Shown here one piece after another: positions 188 to 59,552 of a DNA stretch of 64,000 bases. Position numbers and translations under genes: made by a program. Where the stretch lies: the NCBI GenBank assembly GCA_002786025.1, contig NHNW01000059.1, positions 1 to 64,000 of the forward strand. Reading direction: 5' to 3'. Under the pieces are notes generated by a model that ran no database searches, was not told the DNA's origin, and saw nothing but the letters and a program-made list of their open reading frames with translations. The DNA comes from Zasmidium citrigriseum. Taxonomy: Eukaryota; Ascomycota; Dothideomycetes; Mycosphaerellales; Mycosphaerellaceae. The stretch's first letter is position 1, and each line of letters begins with the position of its first letter.

Positions 188-1024
188 ATGTCTTTAACCG
201 ACAAGACCTTCTCGTTCTCGCGCCTAAAGGGACAAGAGAACTACGAGATCTAGGCTCTAAGAATAGAGTCCTATCTTATCGAGAAGAGCCTATATACCGC
301 TCTAGAGGAGAACGGCGGCGCCGATAAGACCGTAAACAAACGCGCTCTCGCGGCTATCTGTCTAGCCTTAGAAGACGGGCCTCTACTTTAAATTTAAGGC
401 GTTACTAACGCTAAAGACGCGTGGGAGACTCTTAGATCTCTTTACTCGTCTAGAGGCTTTGCTTCCGAGTTCCTAACTTATAAGGAGCTATTTTAAATAA
501 CGCTTAAATCTAGTAGCGGCAAAATAGAGTCGTATCTTAATACGATCTGTCGGCTCTACGACCAGCTTAAGGCGAAGGGAATAGAGATCCCTAAGCAAGT
601 CATAATCGCCTAGACCCTAAACAACCTAACGGAGGAATACGACGGCTTTGTTACGACTATCTCGCAAGCGTACCGCGTAAACAAAGACGCATACTCGATT
701 AAAAGCCTCTTTTCGAACCTCCTAGACGAATCTAGAAGACACGAATCTAAGGAGCAAAATCTAGCTCTATGGATTCGAGAACGGCTTCCTAAGAACAACA
801 ATAAGCCTAAACGTCTAGGGGATAAGGGTCCTAAGCCGCATTGTACCTACTGCGATAAAGAAGGACATAGGGAAGCAAACTGTTTTAATAAGTTTCCCGA
901 TAAGGCTCCTAAATAGTAGAAGCCTACTAGGCTAGAAAATAAGAATAAGAAAGAAAGAGAGCAAAACGAGAATGCTCTTTATACGGCTAGTACGGTTGTA
1001 CCGCGGGACGATAGAGATCTAGAC
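188..1024 (+). pseudogene. gag: Copia gag region with CCHC zinc knuckle, stop-riddled
   Basis: The first ATG of the element is at 188. The same frame continues unbroken by indels into pol at 1025. In-frame stops lie at 251, 389, 395, 494, 611, 914 and 917. All are TAG or TAA and sit where Trp or Gln codons are plausible, as expected if RIP changed TGG or CAR codons. The nucleic-acid-binding knuckle is visible at about 848-890: Cys-X2-Cys-X4-His-X4-Cys (CTYC...GHREANC). Capsid-like sequence precedes it. The product would package element RNA. No intact protein can be made from this copy. Confidence 0.85.
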
Positions 1025-1532
1025 ATGGACAGAGATAGCGATTCTGTAGTCGACGTTCTTAATGTTAATACGTTTGATCTTTGCCCCGCGTCCACGTCTA
1101 CTTTTAAGCCTGAATTTGTCCTAGATTCGGGTGCAACGCGGCATATAGTTAACAAGCGAGAGTACTTTATGAACAACTCGTTTGTTAATAGTCCCACAAC
1201 TATAAGGTGGGCAAATGCCGGGACTATAGTGTCCTACGGAGTCGGGAACGTTAAAATCCGGTTTAACGATACTAATAAGGTCGTTGTACTAGAGCGTTGC
1301 CTATTTGTGCCTAAATTCACAACTAATATAGTGTCTCTAGCACAATTAGACTCTAAAGGCGTCTATGCCCGGCTAAAATCCGGAAAGATAGAGATGTATT
1401 TAGGCGAAGAGCCCCTAGCTAAGGCATTAAGGAAAGGCTCTTTATATTGCCTAGACGTTTCTATTCCTACCGGAAAAAGTAGGCATTCTAATAGCCTGCT
1501 ATTTAGCGAGTCTAAAGACTCGTTAGAATTAG

Positions 1533-1673
1533 AAGGAGCCTCTAAAGCTCCTTTAGAGGGCGCGTCTAAAACGCCCTTAGAGGACACCTATAAAGTGTCC
1601 TTAGAGGACGCCTATAAAGCGTCCTTAGAAGGCACCCCTAAAGTGCCTTTAGAAGACGCCTCTAAAGCGTCTT
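1533..1673 (+). repeat. Six phase-locked 24-bp hairpin repeats in pol
   Basis: Units start at 1533, 1557, 1581, 1605, 1629 and 1653, exactly 24 nt apart. Each forms a 7-bp (second unit 6-bp) inverted repeat around a short loop, mostly seven nucleotides, of the type CTCTAAA, CTATAAA or CCCTAAA. Stems differ between units (GGAGC, GGGCG, GGACAC, GGACGC, GGCAC, GACGC), yet the complementary arm changes with them. A seventh, out-of-phase hairpin lies at 1507-1522. In protein the array is an eight-residue repeat of the type LEDAYKAS, between the protease and GAG-pre-integrase regions. Confidence 0.85.
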
Positions 1674-2645
1674 TAAAGAACGAGGTTTGGCATAAGAGGC
1701 TAGCACACGCGGGACCTAAGGCATTAGAATCCCTAGGCCTAAAAGGGTGTGTAAATTGCGAGGTATGTATACAAGCTAATAAAACTCGCACTATAAGCCA
1801 TAAGCCTACGACTAAAGCTAATGCTTTCCTAGACAAGACGAGTTGCGATATATGCGGGCCTATAGAGCCTAAAACGCATGAAGGGTATCGTTACTTTATC
1901 TCGTTTATTAATAATTAGTCTAGGTATATAGAAGCGAATTTAATGTCTAATAAGTCGGAAGCTTTTAATGCCATTTCATTATATAAAACCCGTTCCGAAA
2001 ACGCATATAGTAACAATCTAAAGCGTCCAAGAATGAAGGTATTTAAGTCCGATAATGCTAAGGAGTTAATCTCTAAGAAAGTTGAGAATCTATTTAACAA
2101 AGACGGCGTAATCCATGAAACTAGCGCGCCGTATACTCCAGAGCAAAACGGACTAATAGAGCGTCCTAATAGGACACTCTTAAACAAAGTACGGGCTATG
2201 TTAGTCGAATCTAGATTGCCTAAGTGGCTTTGGGGAGAGGCTCTTAAAACAGCCGTATATATCTATAATAGAACCCCACATTCTAGTCTAGGAATGAAAT
2301 CGCCTTTTGAAGTTAAATACGACCAAAAGCCAGATCTATCGCACCTTAGAATCTTTGGTTCTATCGCCTACTATCGACATTATAAGGTAAAGAAACTCGA
2401 CTCTAGAGCTAGGAAAGCTGTACTAGTAGGTTTCGGCCAAAACCAATATAAGCTTCTAGATTTAGAGACAAAGAAGCTAGTTTGGGCACGAGACGTTACT
2501 ATACTAGAAGGTGTGTTTCTACGTAATATAACACCTACTAATAGCCTAGAAGTCGAGCATAAAGACGAGGAACCATTACAAGTTGAAATCGAAGGTGCTA
2601 GAAATTTTGAAGCTCAAGCGGCCCAATCGGGCCTAGCGCCGGCCG

Positions 2646-2684
2646 AATCGGGACCGCGCTATGCCCGATTAGGCAGTCTTGGCG
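2646..2684 (+). repeat. Internal copy of an LTR hairpin motif
   Basis: AATCGGG (2646-2652) and CCCGATT (2664-2670) form an inverted repeat around GCGCTAT, followed by a CTTGGCG tail. The LTR contains the same arrangement with the same spacing at 4646-4652 and 4664-4670, followed by GCTTGGCG. The internal copy lies in the pol linker between integrase and RT. Confidence 0.65.
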
Positions 2685-4457
2685 AAGAACATTCTAGACA
2701 TTCTGAAAATCCAGAGAATCAATTGCAAAACGAGTTGCAGACTACAACCCGTAGTTATAGGACTCTAGAAGACGACGGCGAAATCGATGAACTAGCTCTT
2801 CTAGCGAACGCGTCTAATCTAGAGGATCCTATTACCTTTGAGGACGCTATACGTCTAGACAAAGAAGGCTGGACTTAGTCGATGCAAAGTGAAATCGACG
2901 ATTTAAACAAGTTGAGAACTTGGGATCTAGTCGACCCACCTAAAGATCGGAAAGTCCTTAAAGGAAGGTGGGTTTATAAGACTAAAAGAGATCCTTATGG
3001 GAAGCTTATAAAGCTAAAATCGCGGTGGGTCGTTAAAGGATTTAAACAAGTAGAAGGACTAGACTACGATCAAACCTTTAGTTGTACTTGTAGACCTGAA
3101 ACGTGGCGTGCTCTATTCTATAAGGCGGCTTTTGAAGATTTAGAAATTCAGCAATGGGACGTTAAACTAGCGTTCCCTAACTCGCCTATAGATAAAGAGA
3201 TATACGTAGAGCAGCCACATGGATTTGTAGACCCTAATAACCGCGGAAAAGTATGTAGGCTAAATACAGCCTTATATGGACTTAAACAAGCCGCGCGACA
3301 ATGGTATAGGCACCTAGCTAAGATACTGTCGCAATACGGCTTTAGCGTCTTGCCTAAAGATAACGGGGTGTTTATAAATAAAGAAACGGGTATTACTATT
3401 GCATGCCACGTAGACGACATGCTGATTTTTGGACCTAAACTAGAAGACATTAGTACCCTTAAAGCAAACCTAAGTAAACACATAGAGGTTAGCGATCTAG
3501 GGGAAGTTAAGTACTATCTAGGAATAGAAGTTATACGAGACCGCCGTAATAAGACAATTAAACTATTGCAACAAGGCTATCTCGAAAAGATCCTAGATAA
3601 GTATAATAAGAGAGGTCTAACACCCGTAACAACACCCGCAGAAGTAGGTATACGACTAGAGGCTACGCCTAAAGATCGACCTACTAATGCAGAAGAAACT
3701 AAAGAATTTCAAAGGCAAATAGGCGCATTAATATATCTAGCAACAAAGACTAGGCCGGATATTGCTTATGCGACAAATCAATGCGCAAAATTCATGTCTA
3801 ATCCGGACNGACGCGGATTGGGGGGGTGACTATACGACTAGACGTTCAACTACGGGGTATGTCTACTTCCTAGGTAATAAAGCGCCTATTAGTTGGCGTT
3901 GTACGCTACAAAAGACAGTCGCATTATCTAGTTGTGAAGCGGAATATATGGCTTTAAAGGCCGCCGTACAAGAAGCGCTTTTCCTTAAGGATATTTGCGC
4001 TAGTCTAGGAATTAAAACTAGACAACAAGATCTTATTAGTACGGATAACCAATCCGCTATACAACTCGCAAACAATCCTGAACATCATAATAAGACTAAA
4101 CATATCGATATACAATACCACTTTATACGGGAGTGTCTAGAAGATAAGAGAATTTCAATTAGACACGTCCCTACTAAGAAGCAACTAGCAGACCTATTTA
4201 CAAAGGCGCTAGATACCTATAAGTTCAGGAGTTTATGCGAGAACCTATTCTAAAGGAATATAGGTGTTAGGGAGTCTAGGAGTACATAAAGGTCGACTAT
4301 ATAATGTCTAATAAGTATATAATAACTCAATTAAAAGGAGTCGTATACTAGGACATTTCTTAAAGGAATTAAAAGGAATCCTAAGTAGCTAAGGTAAGTA
4401 AATAGGCCTTCTATACCTAAACTAGCTCCTAGAAACCGGAACTAGTTTAGGGGGGTG

Positions 4458-56748: not shown

Positions 56749-58278
56749 ATGGGCGGCCACCACGGACCTGTCGCCGTCTCTGCCCCAGGCAAAGTGCTGC
56801 TGGCCGGCGGATACCTGGCATTGGATCGAAAGTACACTGGTTTAGTGTTTGGCCTGGATGCCCGCATTCATGTCTTGATCCAGGACATTCCGACGAGCAA
56901 CGGCATTGTTCTTAATGAGATCACCGTCAACTCGCCGCAGTTCCTCGATGCCGTCTGGGAGTATGGCTACCGGCTTGCCGAGAGGGATGGCGGCATTGAG
57001 GTTACACAGCTGAGAGCGTAAGTATCTTTCGAGTAGTAATGTCGATTGGGGGAGGATGTGCGGTTTCTTTTGATTTGCTTTAAGTCTACATTTCGTTCTA
57101 TCAAACCCTCACTTACTCAACCGGATACCCGCAGAGATGCCGACCTCAACCTTAACCGCAACCCGTTCATTGAGACTACAATCAGCTACGTCTTGAGCTA
57201 CATCACCAGTCTCGCGGGACCGAACATCACGCCCGCTGCCATCACAGTCCTGGCCGACAATGACTACTACTCCACGCCCGCCGATATATCCAACGGAACT
57301 TCCGGATCGAAACCACGGTTTCACAACTTCGCAGTTCCACTATCAAAAGCCCCAAAGACAGGGCTGGGATCCTCAGCAGCACTTGTGACCGCCGTCACAG
57401 CAGCCTTACTGACTTACTACCTCCCCAAATCCAAATTTGATCTTGTCACCAGCAACAGCAAGCGCCGTCTCCACAACCTCGCCCAGGCCGCCCATTGCGC
57501 AGCTCAAGGAAAGGTCGGCTCTGGCTTCGACGTTGCATCAGCCGTGTATGGAACATGTCTCTACCGACGCTTCTCCCCATCCCTCCTGACTAGCCACGCC
57601 GAGCCGGGAGTTCCCAAGTTTGCCTCTGAGATTCGGGACATCGTCGAAGAGAACCACCATCAACTGCAATGGGACACGGAGATCCACAAAGATGCTGTCA
57701 AGATCCCCAAAGGTCTGAGATTGGTCATGTGCGATGTGTCCTGTGGAAGCAAAACGCCCGGCATGGTGAAGAAAGTCCTGTCTTGGAGGCAGGAGAAGCC
57801 TGAGGAAGCCAATGCAATTTGGGATGATTTGCATGCAGCAAATCAGGCGCTTGCAGCAGAATTCAAAGCCGCAGCCGAAGGCGGCGACGAGAAAGGCTAC
57901 GCAAAGCTCTCCGACTGCTTCACCCGCATTCGAAAACTCATCCGCCTCATGTCGGAGAAGTGCGACGTGCCCATCGAACCACCTGCTCAGACTGAACTCC
58001 TGGACGCTTGTGAAAAGGTGCCAGGTGTAATCGGCGGCGTGGTCCCCGGAGCAGGAGGCTACGATGCCATTTCTCTTCTGATCGAAGATAATGAGAAGAC
58101 AGTCGCAGGTCTGGGAAAGCTCTTGTCGAGCTGGAAATTCAAAGGCGACGGCGAAGCTGCGGAATCAGGGGGCAAAGTAAGCATGTTGGGCGTAAGGGAG
58201 GAGATGGAGGGTGTCAAGGCCGAAGATGCGAAGACGTATCTGCAGTGGTTGAGAGACTTCTCATCACCCCAAAAGTAA
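56749..58278 (+). CDS. ERG8: Phosphomevalonate kinase
   Basis: Exons 56749-57017 and 57135-58278 with a 117-bp intron give 470 aa. It phosphorylates mevalonate-5-phosphate to the diphosphate in the sterol/isoprenoid pathway. GHMP-kinase features: N-terminal VAVSAPGKVLLAGGYLALD, the glycine-rich ATP loop KAPKTGLGSSAALVTAV, GKVGSGFDVASAVYG and C-terminal VPGAGGYDAISLL. The ATG at 56749 gives the usual short N-terminus. The intron is the longest in the window. Confidence 0.93.
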
Positions 58279-58398: not shown

Positions 58399-58407
58399 TA
58401 TATATTT
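58399..58407 (+). promoter_or_regulatory. TATA element upstream of the tRNA gene
   Basis: TATATATTT lies 29-37 nt before the first base of the tRNA. Upstream TATA boxes help recruit TFIIIB in some fungi (established for fission yeast) and could compensate for the split B box. Confidence 0.5.
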
Positions 58408-58435
58408 GCCAAAGAGCTCACTTTCGGAAAATCCC

Positions 58436-58589
58436 GGCAAGGTGTCCGAGTGGTTATGGAGCTGCGTTTAGGCTTGCACCTAAGCAGAATCCGCAGTGGC
58501 GTTGCCTCGTGGGGTGAGCTCGAGTCCACTCCTACTAGTTTGAGACTCCTTTCTAACGATGTATTTCAGTTCAAATCCCACCCTTGTCA
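58436..58589 (+). tRNA. tRNA-Leu(UAG) with a canonical intron plus a 56-bp insertion in the T arm
   Basis: Acceptor arms GGCAAGG (58436-58442) and CCTTGTC (58582-58588) pair fully, with one G-U, and the discriminator is A. The D stem is TCC/GGA. The anticodon stem is CTGCG/CGCAG with loop TTTAGG...C, anticodon TAG (58469-58471). A class II variable arm GGC-GTT-GCC (58498-58506) is present. An 18-nt intron at 58473-58490 sits after position 37 and contains CCTAAG, which pairs with the anticodon loop, as expected of nuclear tRNA introns. The T stem GTGGG (58509-58513) and T loop TTCAAAT with CCCAC (58570-58581) match perfectly but are separated by 58514-58569. Removing both insertions leaves an 80-nt class II tRNA with no mismatch. 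Confidence 0.85.
58514..58569 (+). other. Spliceosomal-intron-like insertion inside the tRNA-Leu T arm
   Basis: 56 bp between tRNA positions 53 and 54. It starts GTGAGC, has the branch-site consensus CTAAC at 58553-58557 (branch A 13 nt before the end) and ends TTTCAG. Length and signals are those of the protein-gene introns in this window. It separates GTGGG from TTCAAATCC and so splits the internal B box. Confidence 0.75.
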
Positions 58590-58615
58590 ACATTCAAGGT
58601 TGAACCAGCCGTTTC

Positions 58616-58628
58616 TTTTTGTTTTTTT
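58616..58628 (+). terminator. Pol III poly-T terminator
   Basis: Runs of five and seven T (58616-58620, 58622-58628) lie 27 nt after the tRNA 3' end on the sense strand. This is a strong Pol III stop signal. Confidence 0.75.
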
Positions 58629-59552
58629 GGTGTGATAGGATGGGGTTGGTACGGGTGTGAAAGTTATACCTTTTTGTTTGTTTTGGTGCTTGGAGTGATA
58701 GTGGAACTTATGGAATGGATATATTTTTGAATTTGAGTCTCGGATGGACTGCAAATATCGATTGAGATGCTGTGTTCGGTACAAGTTCTTTTCAAATAAG
58801 GCTGCGGAGTAAACTCCTAAACATGAACACATCTTGGATGTTCTCCAACATGTCCCGCCGCCTTTCCTTCCCCGTCGAAAGCTCATAGTTGATCGAAATC
58901 GTTCCCAACTGCATCGTATATGAACCTTGGCAAGAGAGCACGATTTCATGTACAGTCTTTCGTTGCTCAAGTGCTAGGCATATTGAACGATGTTCTTGGA
59001 CCGTTCAGATGCTAGAGTTTTGATGTTGAGATCCTTGTCCGTCTCCGTCCTCTTGTTGCCTTCCACTGTAGCACAGCCTTGCACGTCTAGAGGGAGAAAG
59101 ACGTTGCGAGGCTATTTATCCCGAGCGTGCTTTCATCGATCGAAGATTGCACGAAACGATTGTGGACGTACTCAAGCCCAGTTATATATGACTCTATACC
59201 CCGTTCGCACTTTGACCACAACATGTGTGTATACACTTGTCCGTCTGCGTGTGCATGCCATTGTTAGCTTTCGGTTTGGACATCAGAACATCCCTCAACC
59301 GTCCGAAGGCAATGCATTTGCGACGTTCTCCGTGACCTGACGTCTCTCCAGTGCCAATCACTCTGCTGCCATATCTTATAGAACTGTTTGCTAGCAGGGG
59401 ATAGCCATATTGGTCAAGATTGCAAGCAGCGTTGCGTTGATGCTTGTATGTTCTTCATACTCGCACTGCAGCCAGGGACTCATAGAAAGATTCAGGAGGC
59501 CAAATCGTCTTCATTGCCAGATGCATGATATCTCATCCAGTGAAGTGAAAAT
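58629..59552. other. Intergenic region
   Basis: About 920 bp with no frame showing a family motif or splice-supported extension. Confidence 0.4.

Follow-up and report, generated by a model that had tools for sequence, protein, structure and literature searches.

The window, a stretch of 64,000 nucleotides, contains a tRNA-Leu(UAG) gene that is interrupted in its T arm by a 56-nt insertion with the ends and the branch-point motif of an mRNA intron. This insertion is very probably a U2-type spliceosomal intron in a gene transcribed by Pol III, and it is one of at least 30 such candidates in at least 18 tRNA genes of the same genome (44.4 Mb in 148 contigs, designated by C numbers; the window is C104:1-64000). 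The initial annotation had read the window gene correctly; it had missed the genome-wide pattern and the interruption of every complete tRNA-Asp gene that was found.

The features of the window gene were as follows, with positions counted from the first letter of the window.

58436–58589, + strand: tRNA-Leu(UAG) gene, interrupted twice (ARAGORN call after removal of the insertion; pairing of acceptor and T stem)
58436–58472, + strand: 5' half to position 37, with acceptor strand, D arm, anticodon stem and UAG anticodon (sequence, ARAGORN)
58443–58453, + strand: TGTCCGAGTGG, which we take from the familiar consensus to be a box A-like internal Pol III promoter (sequence)
58473–58490, + strand: 18-nt tRNA intron of the endonuclease type at 37/38 (ARAGORN intron insertion position 37-38)
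58491–58513, + strand: exon with 3' anticodon stem, variable arm and T-stem 5' strand GTGGG (sequence, stem pairing)
58514–58569, + strand: spliceosomal-type intron, 56 nt, at tRNA position 53/54 (GTGAGC...CTAAC...TTTCAG; sole top-scoring product of blind deletions)
58514–58519, + strand: 5' splice site GTGAGC (sequence)
58553–58557, + strand: branch-point motif CTAAC, with 12 nt between it and the intron end (sequence)
58567–58569, + strand: 3' splice site CAG, whose G is shared in the DNA with the start of the B box (sequence)
58569–58578, + strand: GTTCAAATCC, presumably box B by the same kind of consensus, uninterrupted in the unspliced gene (sequence)
58570–58589, + strand: 3' exon with T loop, T-stem 3' strand, acceptor 3' strand and discriminator A (stem pairing)
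58616–58628, + strand: Pol III terminator-like T runs (T5, T7), the first beginning 27 nt past the tRNA end

Direct reading bore out the limits, length and terminal hexamers that had been proposed for the insertion, and together with ARAGORN it confirmed the site between the T stem GTGGG and the T loop and the ordinary 18-nt intron in the same gene. The branch-point motif had been placed one nucleotide too far upstream, at 13 nt before the intron end. The box B of this gene is intact before splicing because the intron ends in AG.

When 58514–58569 was deleted, ARAGORN, with anticodon-loop introns allowed, called tRNA-Leu(tag) with 80 bases and an 18-nt intron at 37-38, and it made no tRNA call on the unspliced stretch 58400–58660. 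The restored tRNA had 7/7 acceptor pairs (GGCAAGG/CCTTGTC, one of them G-U) and 5/5 T-stem pairs (GTGGG/CCCAC). The claim that the tRNA folds without a mismatch only after removal of the insertion was thus upheld by ARAGORN and by the pairing, provided that G-U is counted as a pair. An Rfam run at gathering scores found no RNA in the entire 64,000-nt window, and a lax scan of the tRNA locus gave no tRNA match.

The position of the ends was examined by a blind scan in which 4824 deletions of 38-85 nt with any ends were scored. A single product scored within 1.0 of the best value; two cutting registers, GT..AG and GG..CA, lead to it. A second scan with 4392 deletions left this result unchanged. 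By our own calculation, which assumes equal base frequencies, GT-AG ends in one of two registers together with a CTRAY motif within five positions would arise by chance about once in 6,500.

The initial annotation had also compared the insertion with the mRNA introns around it, and this likeness was only loosely backed. A strict intron-motif scan of the window gave 23 candidates (median 53 nt, tRNA insertion included), and this reference set is noisy because two control motifs gave 17 and 14.

The same kind of interruption was found throughout the genome. The 18 genes of the catalogue, with one to three spliceosomal-type introns each outside 37/38, were the following.

tRNA-Leu(UAG), window (C104): one intron, at 53/54
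tRNA-Leu(CAG): C59
tRNA-Val(CAC): C116
tRNA-Val(AAC): C61 and C106, two genes
tRNA-Ser(UGA): C94
tRNA-Gln(CUG): C62 and C81, two genes
tRNA-Gln(UUG): C62, three introns
tRNA-Pro(CGG): C84, two introns
tRNA-Glu(CUC): C101, C58 and C138, two introns in each gene
tRNA-Asp(GUC): C83 and C127, two introns in each gene
tRNA-Asp(GUC): C74, three introns
tRNA-Arg(CCU): C61, three introns
tRNA-Gly(CCC): C59

Intron positions were assigned by hand numbering of the exon strings. In the acceptor stem they were 4/5, 68/69, 69/70 and 70/71 (twice), in the D arm 14/15, 15/16 (five times), 17/18, 18/19 (twice) and 21/22, and in the T arm 50/51, 51/52 and 53/54 (four times). The others lay at 9/10, 26/27, 28/29 (twice) and in the variable region (five times). 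None of the 30 junctions fell at the canonical 37/38 site.

The 30 introns were 48-78 nt long, with a median of 55.5 nt, compared with 53 nt for the noisy candidate set of the window (n = 23). All of them had GT-AG ends, partly through the design of the searches, and 28 carried G at +5, which was required by the automated splicing test and by the GTAAG and GTGAG searches but not by the patterns of branch point, AG and B box or of B box and TTTTT. The branch motif was CTAAC in 19, CTGAC in 7 and CTAAT in 4. The presence of CTRAY is partly by construction because most search patterns contained it; this does not apply to its narrow spacing, with 8-12 nt between the motif and the intron end in 30/30. 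The 3' ends were CAG (20), TAG (7) and AAG (3).

Removal of the introns restored a tRNA in every case. ARAGORN called a tRNA with the named anticodon in 18/18 genes after removal; with the introns left in, it made no call in 13 and a call with a false intron in 5, with the right isotype in one. The T stem was paired 5/5 in all 18 genes, and the acceptor 7/7 in 16 and 6/7 in two (one mismatch each in Asp C83 and Gly C59). The weakest member was tRNA-Arg(CCU), the acceptor of which has four G-U and just three Watson-Crick pairs. The T loop was TTCRANY in 18/18, as demanded by the searches. The first run of at least four T began at +5 to +38 in 18/18 genes; the loci that came from searching for a B box with TTTTT behind it had been selected for a T run within 37 nt.

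Some exons were very short: one gene has an internal exon of only 10 nt, and in others as few as 3-5 nt of mature tRNA lie past an intron. TTTT occurred inside one of the 30 introns. For 24 introns this count was 1 against 3.2 in shuffles, which was not significant (P 0.126), and a comparison of the tRNA introns with the noisy window candidates gave a Fisher P of 0.09.

To locate intron ends without splice motifs, each of the 30 introns was treated separately: the other mRNA-type introns of the gene were removed and every deletion of 38-85 nt was scored. The GT-AG product stood at the top for 12 introns and alone there for 7. It was top and alone for all six T-arm introns, and top for all five acceptor-stem introns (one alone, four tied). 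Among the remaining 19, it was top for one and another deletion scored higher for 18; the ends in the D arm, at 9/10, in the anticodon stem and in the variable region therefore rest on splice motifs. An earlier blind scan of seven loci had left the GT-AG ends unfixed in six. Thus, the tRNA itself dictates the GT-AG ends where base pairing constrains the junction, namely in the T arm and the acceptor stem.

Two tRNA-Glu genes (C58 and C138) allowed a prediction. The DNA first read ended in an apparent T1xT72 mismatch followed by GTGAGC or GTCAGT, and because of this mismatch an acceptor-stem intron with a 3' exon starting GA was predicted. Further DNA read CTAACAATCAAGCAG/GA and CTAACCACTGAACAG/GA (the slash marking the junction), as predicted. 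With these introns out, 7/7 acceptor pairs were restored, and a T run stood behind each gene.

Several genome searches with control patterns were used to find these genes. Patterns of 5' splice site, branch point and B box gave 36 matches against 15 in the control for GTAAG, and 34 against 12 for GTGAG; the latter 34 included two known cases, and three others (L145, L146 and L051) were read by eye. Patterns of branch point, AG and B box were barely above control (11 against 9, and 5 against 4), and with a longer spacer the same design gave 26 against 6, many of them in repeat families. The search for a B box followed by TTTTT, which contains no intron motif, gave 88 rows with overlaps against 9 in the control. 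Pattern matches that did not look like tRNA by eye were L077, L130, L051, L145, L146 and L132-L134. L102 (C72) was left out of the 18 because its T stem was poor by eye and its anticodon unclear; at C72:126382-126422 it may be a further tRNA gene with two mRNA-type introns, with a well paired acceptor and a mismatched T stem.

An automated splicing test was applied to 66 B-box sites. Candidate introns (GTNNG..CTRAY..YAG, 38-115 nt) were removed in every combination of as many as three, and the products were given to ARAGORN. A tRNA call was created or improved at 14 of the 66 sites, compared with one each for two control sets whose motifs are about as frequent; this comparison tilts toward the real motif set because 12 of the 66 sites had been chosen by intron motif. 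Among the 60 sites that fit the motif-free B box and TTTTT pattern, the counts were 11 against 1 and 1, and among the 54 sites from that search alone they were 5 (one being the doubtful L102) against 0 and 1. With looser motifs and a score of at least 105, the excess shrank: 16 of 66 loci passed, and the three controls gave 4, 4 and 5. The automated test called Asp C127 as the wrong isotype, and its junctions for Asp C127 and the Arg gene differed from the final choice. Asp C74, two Glu genes (both longer-spacer matches) and two Val genes were added by eye.

The Rfam tRNA model gave 35 matches among 63 scored of 1309 candidates in the genome, which is not a census. Of these, 17 lay on the small contigs C41 and C51, taken to be mitochondrial, one on C49, and 17 elsewhere. 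An mRNA-type intron was seen by eye in three of the last group (Val(CAC), Leu(CAG) and Arg(CCU)) and was lacking in 14. Rfam runs also covered 24 of 50 other stretches of the genome. A tRNA match at gathering score was missing in the stretches of 14 of the 18 catalogue genes; for the Glu genes of C58 and C138, the final 3-nt exon lay outside the sequence given to Rfam. Such genes are therefore missed by annotation, and similar cases may hide in other fungi.

We then asked whether uninterrupted copies exist, beginning with tRNA-Asp. A single tRNA, with the anticodon GUC, serves the aspartate codons. A search with the Asp anticodon arm gave four exact matches, which correspond to the three complete genes (with two, two and three introns) and one fragment. 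The three one-mismatch matches were not tRNAs by eye, and no uninterrupted tRNA-Asp gene was present among the exact and one-mismatch matches. Extending the search to two mismatches gave 60 matches (53 with two mismatches) against 58 in the control, so that no excess was seen; a gene with at least two mismatches in the anticodon arm would be missed by this search. The fragment, at C83:684698 on the + strand (in L080), runs from the end of the D arm to the anticodon loop and includes part of the 37/38 intron. It has no B box and lies about 0.7 kb from a complete Asp gene.

For tRNA-Leu(UAG), a search for other copies had been suggested in the initial annotation, and none was found by two approaches that were not exhaustive. 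BLAST of the spliced gene against the genome matched only the gene itself, a method that distant copies would escape. A pattern from the D arm to the anticodon gave 7 matches against 14 in the control, and its only exact match was the window gene. As a positive control it picked up the Leu(CAG) gene with one mismatch; it also gave five two-mismatch matches, and would miss a copy with its own D-arm intron. For tRNA-Glu(CUC), a copy without mRNA-type introns does exist (L121), and ARAGORN calls it unspliced.

These results bear on the alternative explanations. Excision by the tRNA-splicing endonuclease at ectopic bulge-helix-bulge (BHB) sites, with GT-AG ends that are coincidental, is very unlikely for the insertions. 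Position 53/54 is among the non-canonical archaeal tRNA intron positions listed in PMC4090602, ectopic introns of the D and T arms are described for eukaryotes in PMC4090602 and PMC9602550, and a central helix of four pairs is possible in the window intron, though in a non-standard register. Nevertheless, in 24 of the 30 introns a strict BHB was present at 0/24 junction pairs (0.28 in shuffles) and a relaxed one at 1/24 (0.87 in shuffles), and an endonuclease has no place for GT-AG ends with CTRAY at 8-12 nt in every intron. The spliceosomal reading, which had been put forward for the window gene alone, is supported by this result, by the exact restoration of the tRNA, the GT-AG ends and the branch-point distance, by 17 further genes with 29 introns, and by the failure to find a second Leu(UAG) gene.

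An equally small chance is given to the explanation that the interrupted genes are pseudogenes or silent copies with acquired introns, and that uninterrupted copies elsewhere are the working ones. According to PMC4090602, insertions in the eukaryotic D and T arms are supposed to mark pseudogenes, and the Glu(CUC) copy at L121 would be such a working copy. Against it stand the intact T stems in all 18 genes and acceptors in 16, the T runs behind the genes, and the searches for Asp and Leu(UAG) described above. The paralogues argue in the same direction. In four pairs (three Asp, one Gln), the exon strings including the 37/38 introns were 87-91% alike, whereas the introns were 64-83% identical in a gap-tolerant alignment that gave 73.6 (sd 6.4) for unrelated introns, and yet the splice motifs were kept across the compared introns. 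The two Gln introns look alike near their 3' ends. Such divergence would be as expected if mainly the splice signals were retained.

Two further explanations have next to no probability. The window intron could be a 3'-UTR intron of an upstream Pol II mRNA that lies over the tRNA gene by chance, since a same-strand reading frame, ERG8-like kinase by eye, ends at 58278, about 160 nt before the tRNA; this would leave the exact restoration of the T arm and the 17 other genes unexplained. An artefact of assembly or sequencing could be suspected in an assembly of 148 contigs, but misassembly does not give 30 insertions with splice motifs at 18 loci on many contigs.

We therefore retain the spliceosomal intron, and a pathway can be proposed for the window gene, in which transcription, splicing, their order and the U2-type snRNPs as agents are inferred from sequence. 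TFIIIC would find its boxes in the DNA, where at the 53/54 site the AG of the intron restores the G of box B. In all four 53/54 genes, GTTCRANNC is intact in the DNA because the intron AG supplies the G before TTC. Pol III would then read the whole gene from the internal boxes into one precursor that ends at the T run. The spliceosome would recognise GTRNGY, CTRAY and YAG, the intron would leave as a lariat, and GTGGG would be joined to TTCAAAT. The tRNA endonuclease and ligase would take out the 18-nt intron at 37/38. Since the T arm of this gene, and the acceptor or T arm of several others, is broken before splicing, spliceosomal removal would be expected to come before end trimming by RNase P and RNase Z.

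On this basis, we consider it likely that the spliceosome is an obligatory tRNA-maturation enzyme in this fungal lineage, with tRNA-Asp, probably tRNA-Leu(UAG) and perhaps others present only as genes with one to three spliceosomal introns. Under such an obligatory role, two unrelated splicing machines would have to act on one RNA, because the spliceosomal introns mostly stand alongside a 37/38 intron. Furthermore, translation and splicing would be mutually dependent in a closed loop, as U6, which the spliceosome needs, would itself be a spliced Pol III RNA.

Three U6 matches with E <= 0.001 were obtained in the same genome (47 of 2195 candidates scored), namely L135 (C117:112082-112180), L136 (C72:164981) and L093 (C59:490950-491109). 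They fell below the Rfam cut-off, as would be expected because the genes are interrupted. Each contained one mRNA-type intron, at the same site in 3/3: GGCC/GTAAGT..AG/CCTGCACTAAGG. In the C117 and C59 matches, a B box of the tRNA type, GTTCGAATCC, lies within the intron. The U6 gene of fission yeast is likewise known to carry a B box in its intron. If the three matches are the U6 genes of this fungus, Pol III transcripts already pass through its spliceosome.

The closest known systems are the introns of fungal U6 snRNA and U3 snoRNA, which like those described here have GT-AG ends and a branch site in genes for small structured RNAs; U6 also shares transcription by Pol III with tRNA and has introns in all three matches of this genome. 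PMC5832005 describes U3 introns as normal spliceosomal introns, cites U6 introns for fission yeast and other fungi, and names U3 and U6 as the only two small structured RNAs in which introns are known to be frequent. Unlike in those cases, the host here is tRNA, with many genes, many positions and up to three introns per gene.

Among tRNA introns, the eukaryotic endonuclease introns at 37/38 are present in the same precursors, and the new introns differ from them in other positions, mostly greater length and spliceosomal signals. Ectopic tRNA introns of archaea, nucleomorphs and Cyanidioschyzon merolae resemble those reported here, since according to PMC4090602 they occur several per gene, in the D and T arms and elsewhere. 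The same review bases the archaeal introns on BHB or related motifs and an endonuclease, and states that the BHB seems critical for the ectopic introns of C. merolae, in contrast to the lack of a strict BHB at the 24 junction pairs here.

Ascomycete nuclear rRNA genes carry spliceosomal introns. These are also mRNA-type introns in fungal non-coding RNA genes, with a Pol I rRNA instead of a tRNA as the host. A paper on them is cited in PMC11782384. The word stem 'spliceosom' is absent from the review of tRNA introns PMC4090602 and from the tRNAscan-SE 2.0 paper PMC8450103. A literature search, judged by titles and the starts of abstracts in a full-text library that includes only a minority of subscription papers, turned up no tRNA gene described as carrying a spliceosomal intron. 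The kind of intron and the class of gene are both known; their combination seems to be unreported.

Known tRNA introns are either self-splicing, in bacteria and organelles, or removed by protein endonucleases. The protein-endonuclease type is covered in PMC4090602. A spliceosomal class would be an addition to these kinds. If the reading is true, the spliceosome routinely processes Pol III precursors that are uncapped and highly folded and have very short exons, and the order of the two splicing pathways becomes directly testable. In addition, intron gain would have been placed in genes in which almost every base is constrained.

Other loci with Pol III-like features were recorded during the searches. 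One tRNA-like family comprises L108 (C78:194260-196127), L099, L100, L107, L112 and L115. With variations, its members share box A GGCTGATCTAGTCTAATGGTAAGACG, B box GTTCGACTCCGGCGGTCAGCAA and a T run, and they carry variable inserts at the place of the anticodon arm. Five copies lie within 2 kb on C78, and the isotypes called by ARAGORN keep changing; this is possibly a tRNA-derived small RNA family. The loci L104, L118, L123, L124 and L125 share box A, a B box, a T run and a conserved stretch, GGTAACTATCAAAC..TTTC.., that shows variations. By eye they are not normal tRNA and possibly encode a Pol III small RNA, and Rfam at gathering score matched neither L104 nor L124.

A further Pol III-like unit, in L085, L087, L094, L126 and L128, consists of CAGGGAAGTAGC or a similar sequence with a B box and a T run behind it; L085, L087, L094 and L128 gave no Rfam match. 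L098, L119 and L105 are tRNA-like with good acceptor, D and T arms. They lack U33 and have a long anticodon-loop insert, seemingly 5' of the anticodon; L098 and L105 exceed the Rfam tRNA cut-off. A dispersed repeat family with tRNA-like A and B boxes (TAGCCTAGTAGCCTAGTTAGTATCG...CTAGGTTCGATTC) was seen at C3:39271, C11:5586, C39:1732, C85:377016 and other places, including L097, and is perhaps a mutated tRNA-derived repeat.

Within the window, stop-broken reading frames resembling a Ty1/copia-type retroelement were noted at 920-4253, with the translations judged by eye. Judged by one 1285-aa protein of the window, the source is probably a fungus of the Mycosphaerellaceae near Zasmidium: the protein showed 93% identity to a Zasmidium cellare protein and 76-82% to named proteins from Lecanosticta, Dothistroma, Pseudocercospora, Zymoseptoria, Cercospora and Septoria.
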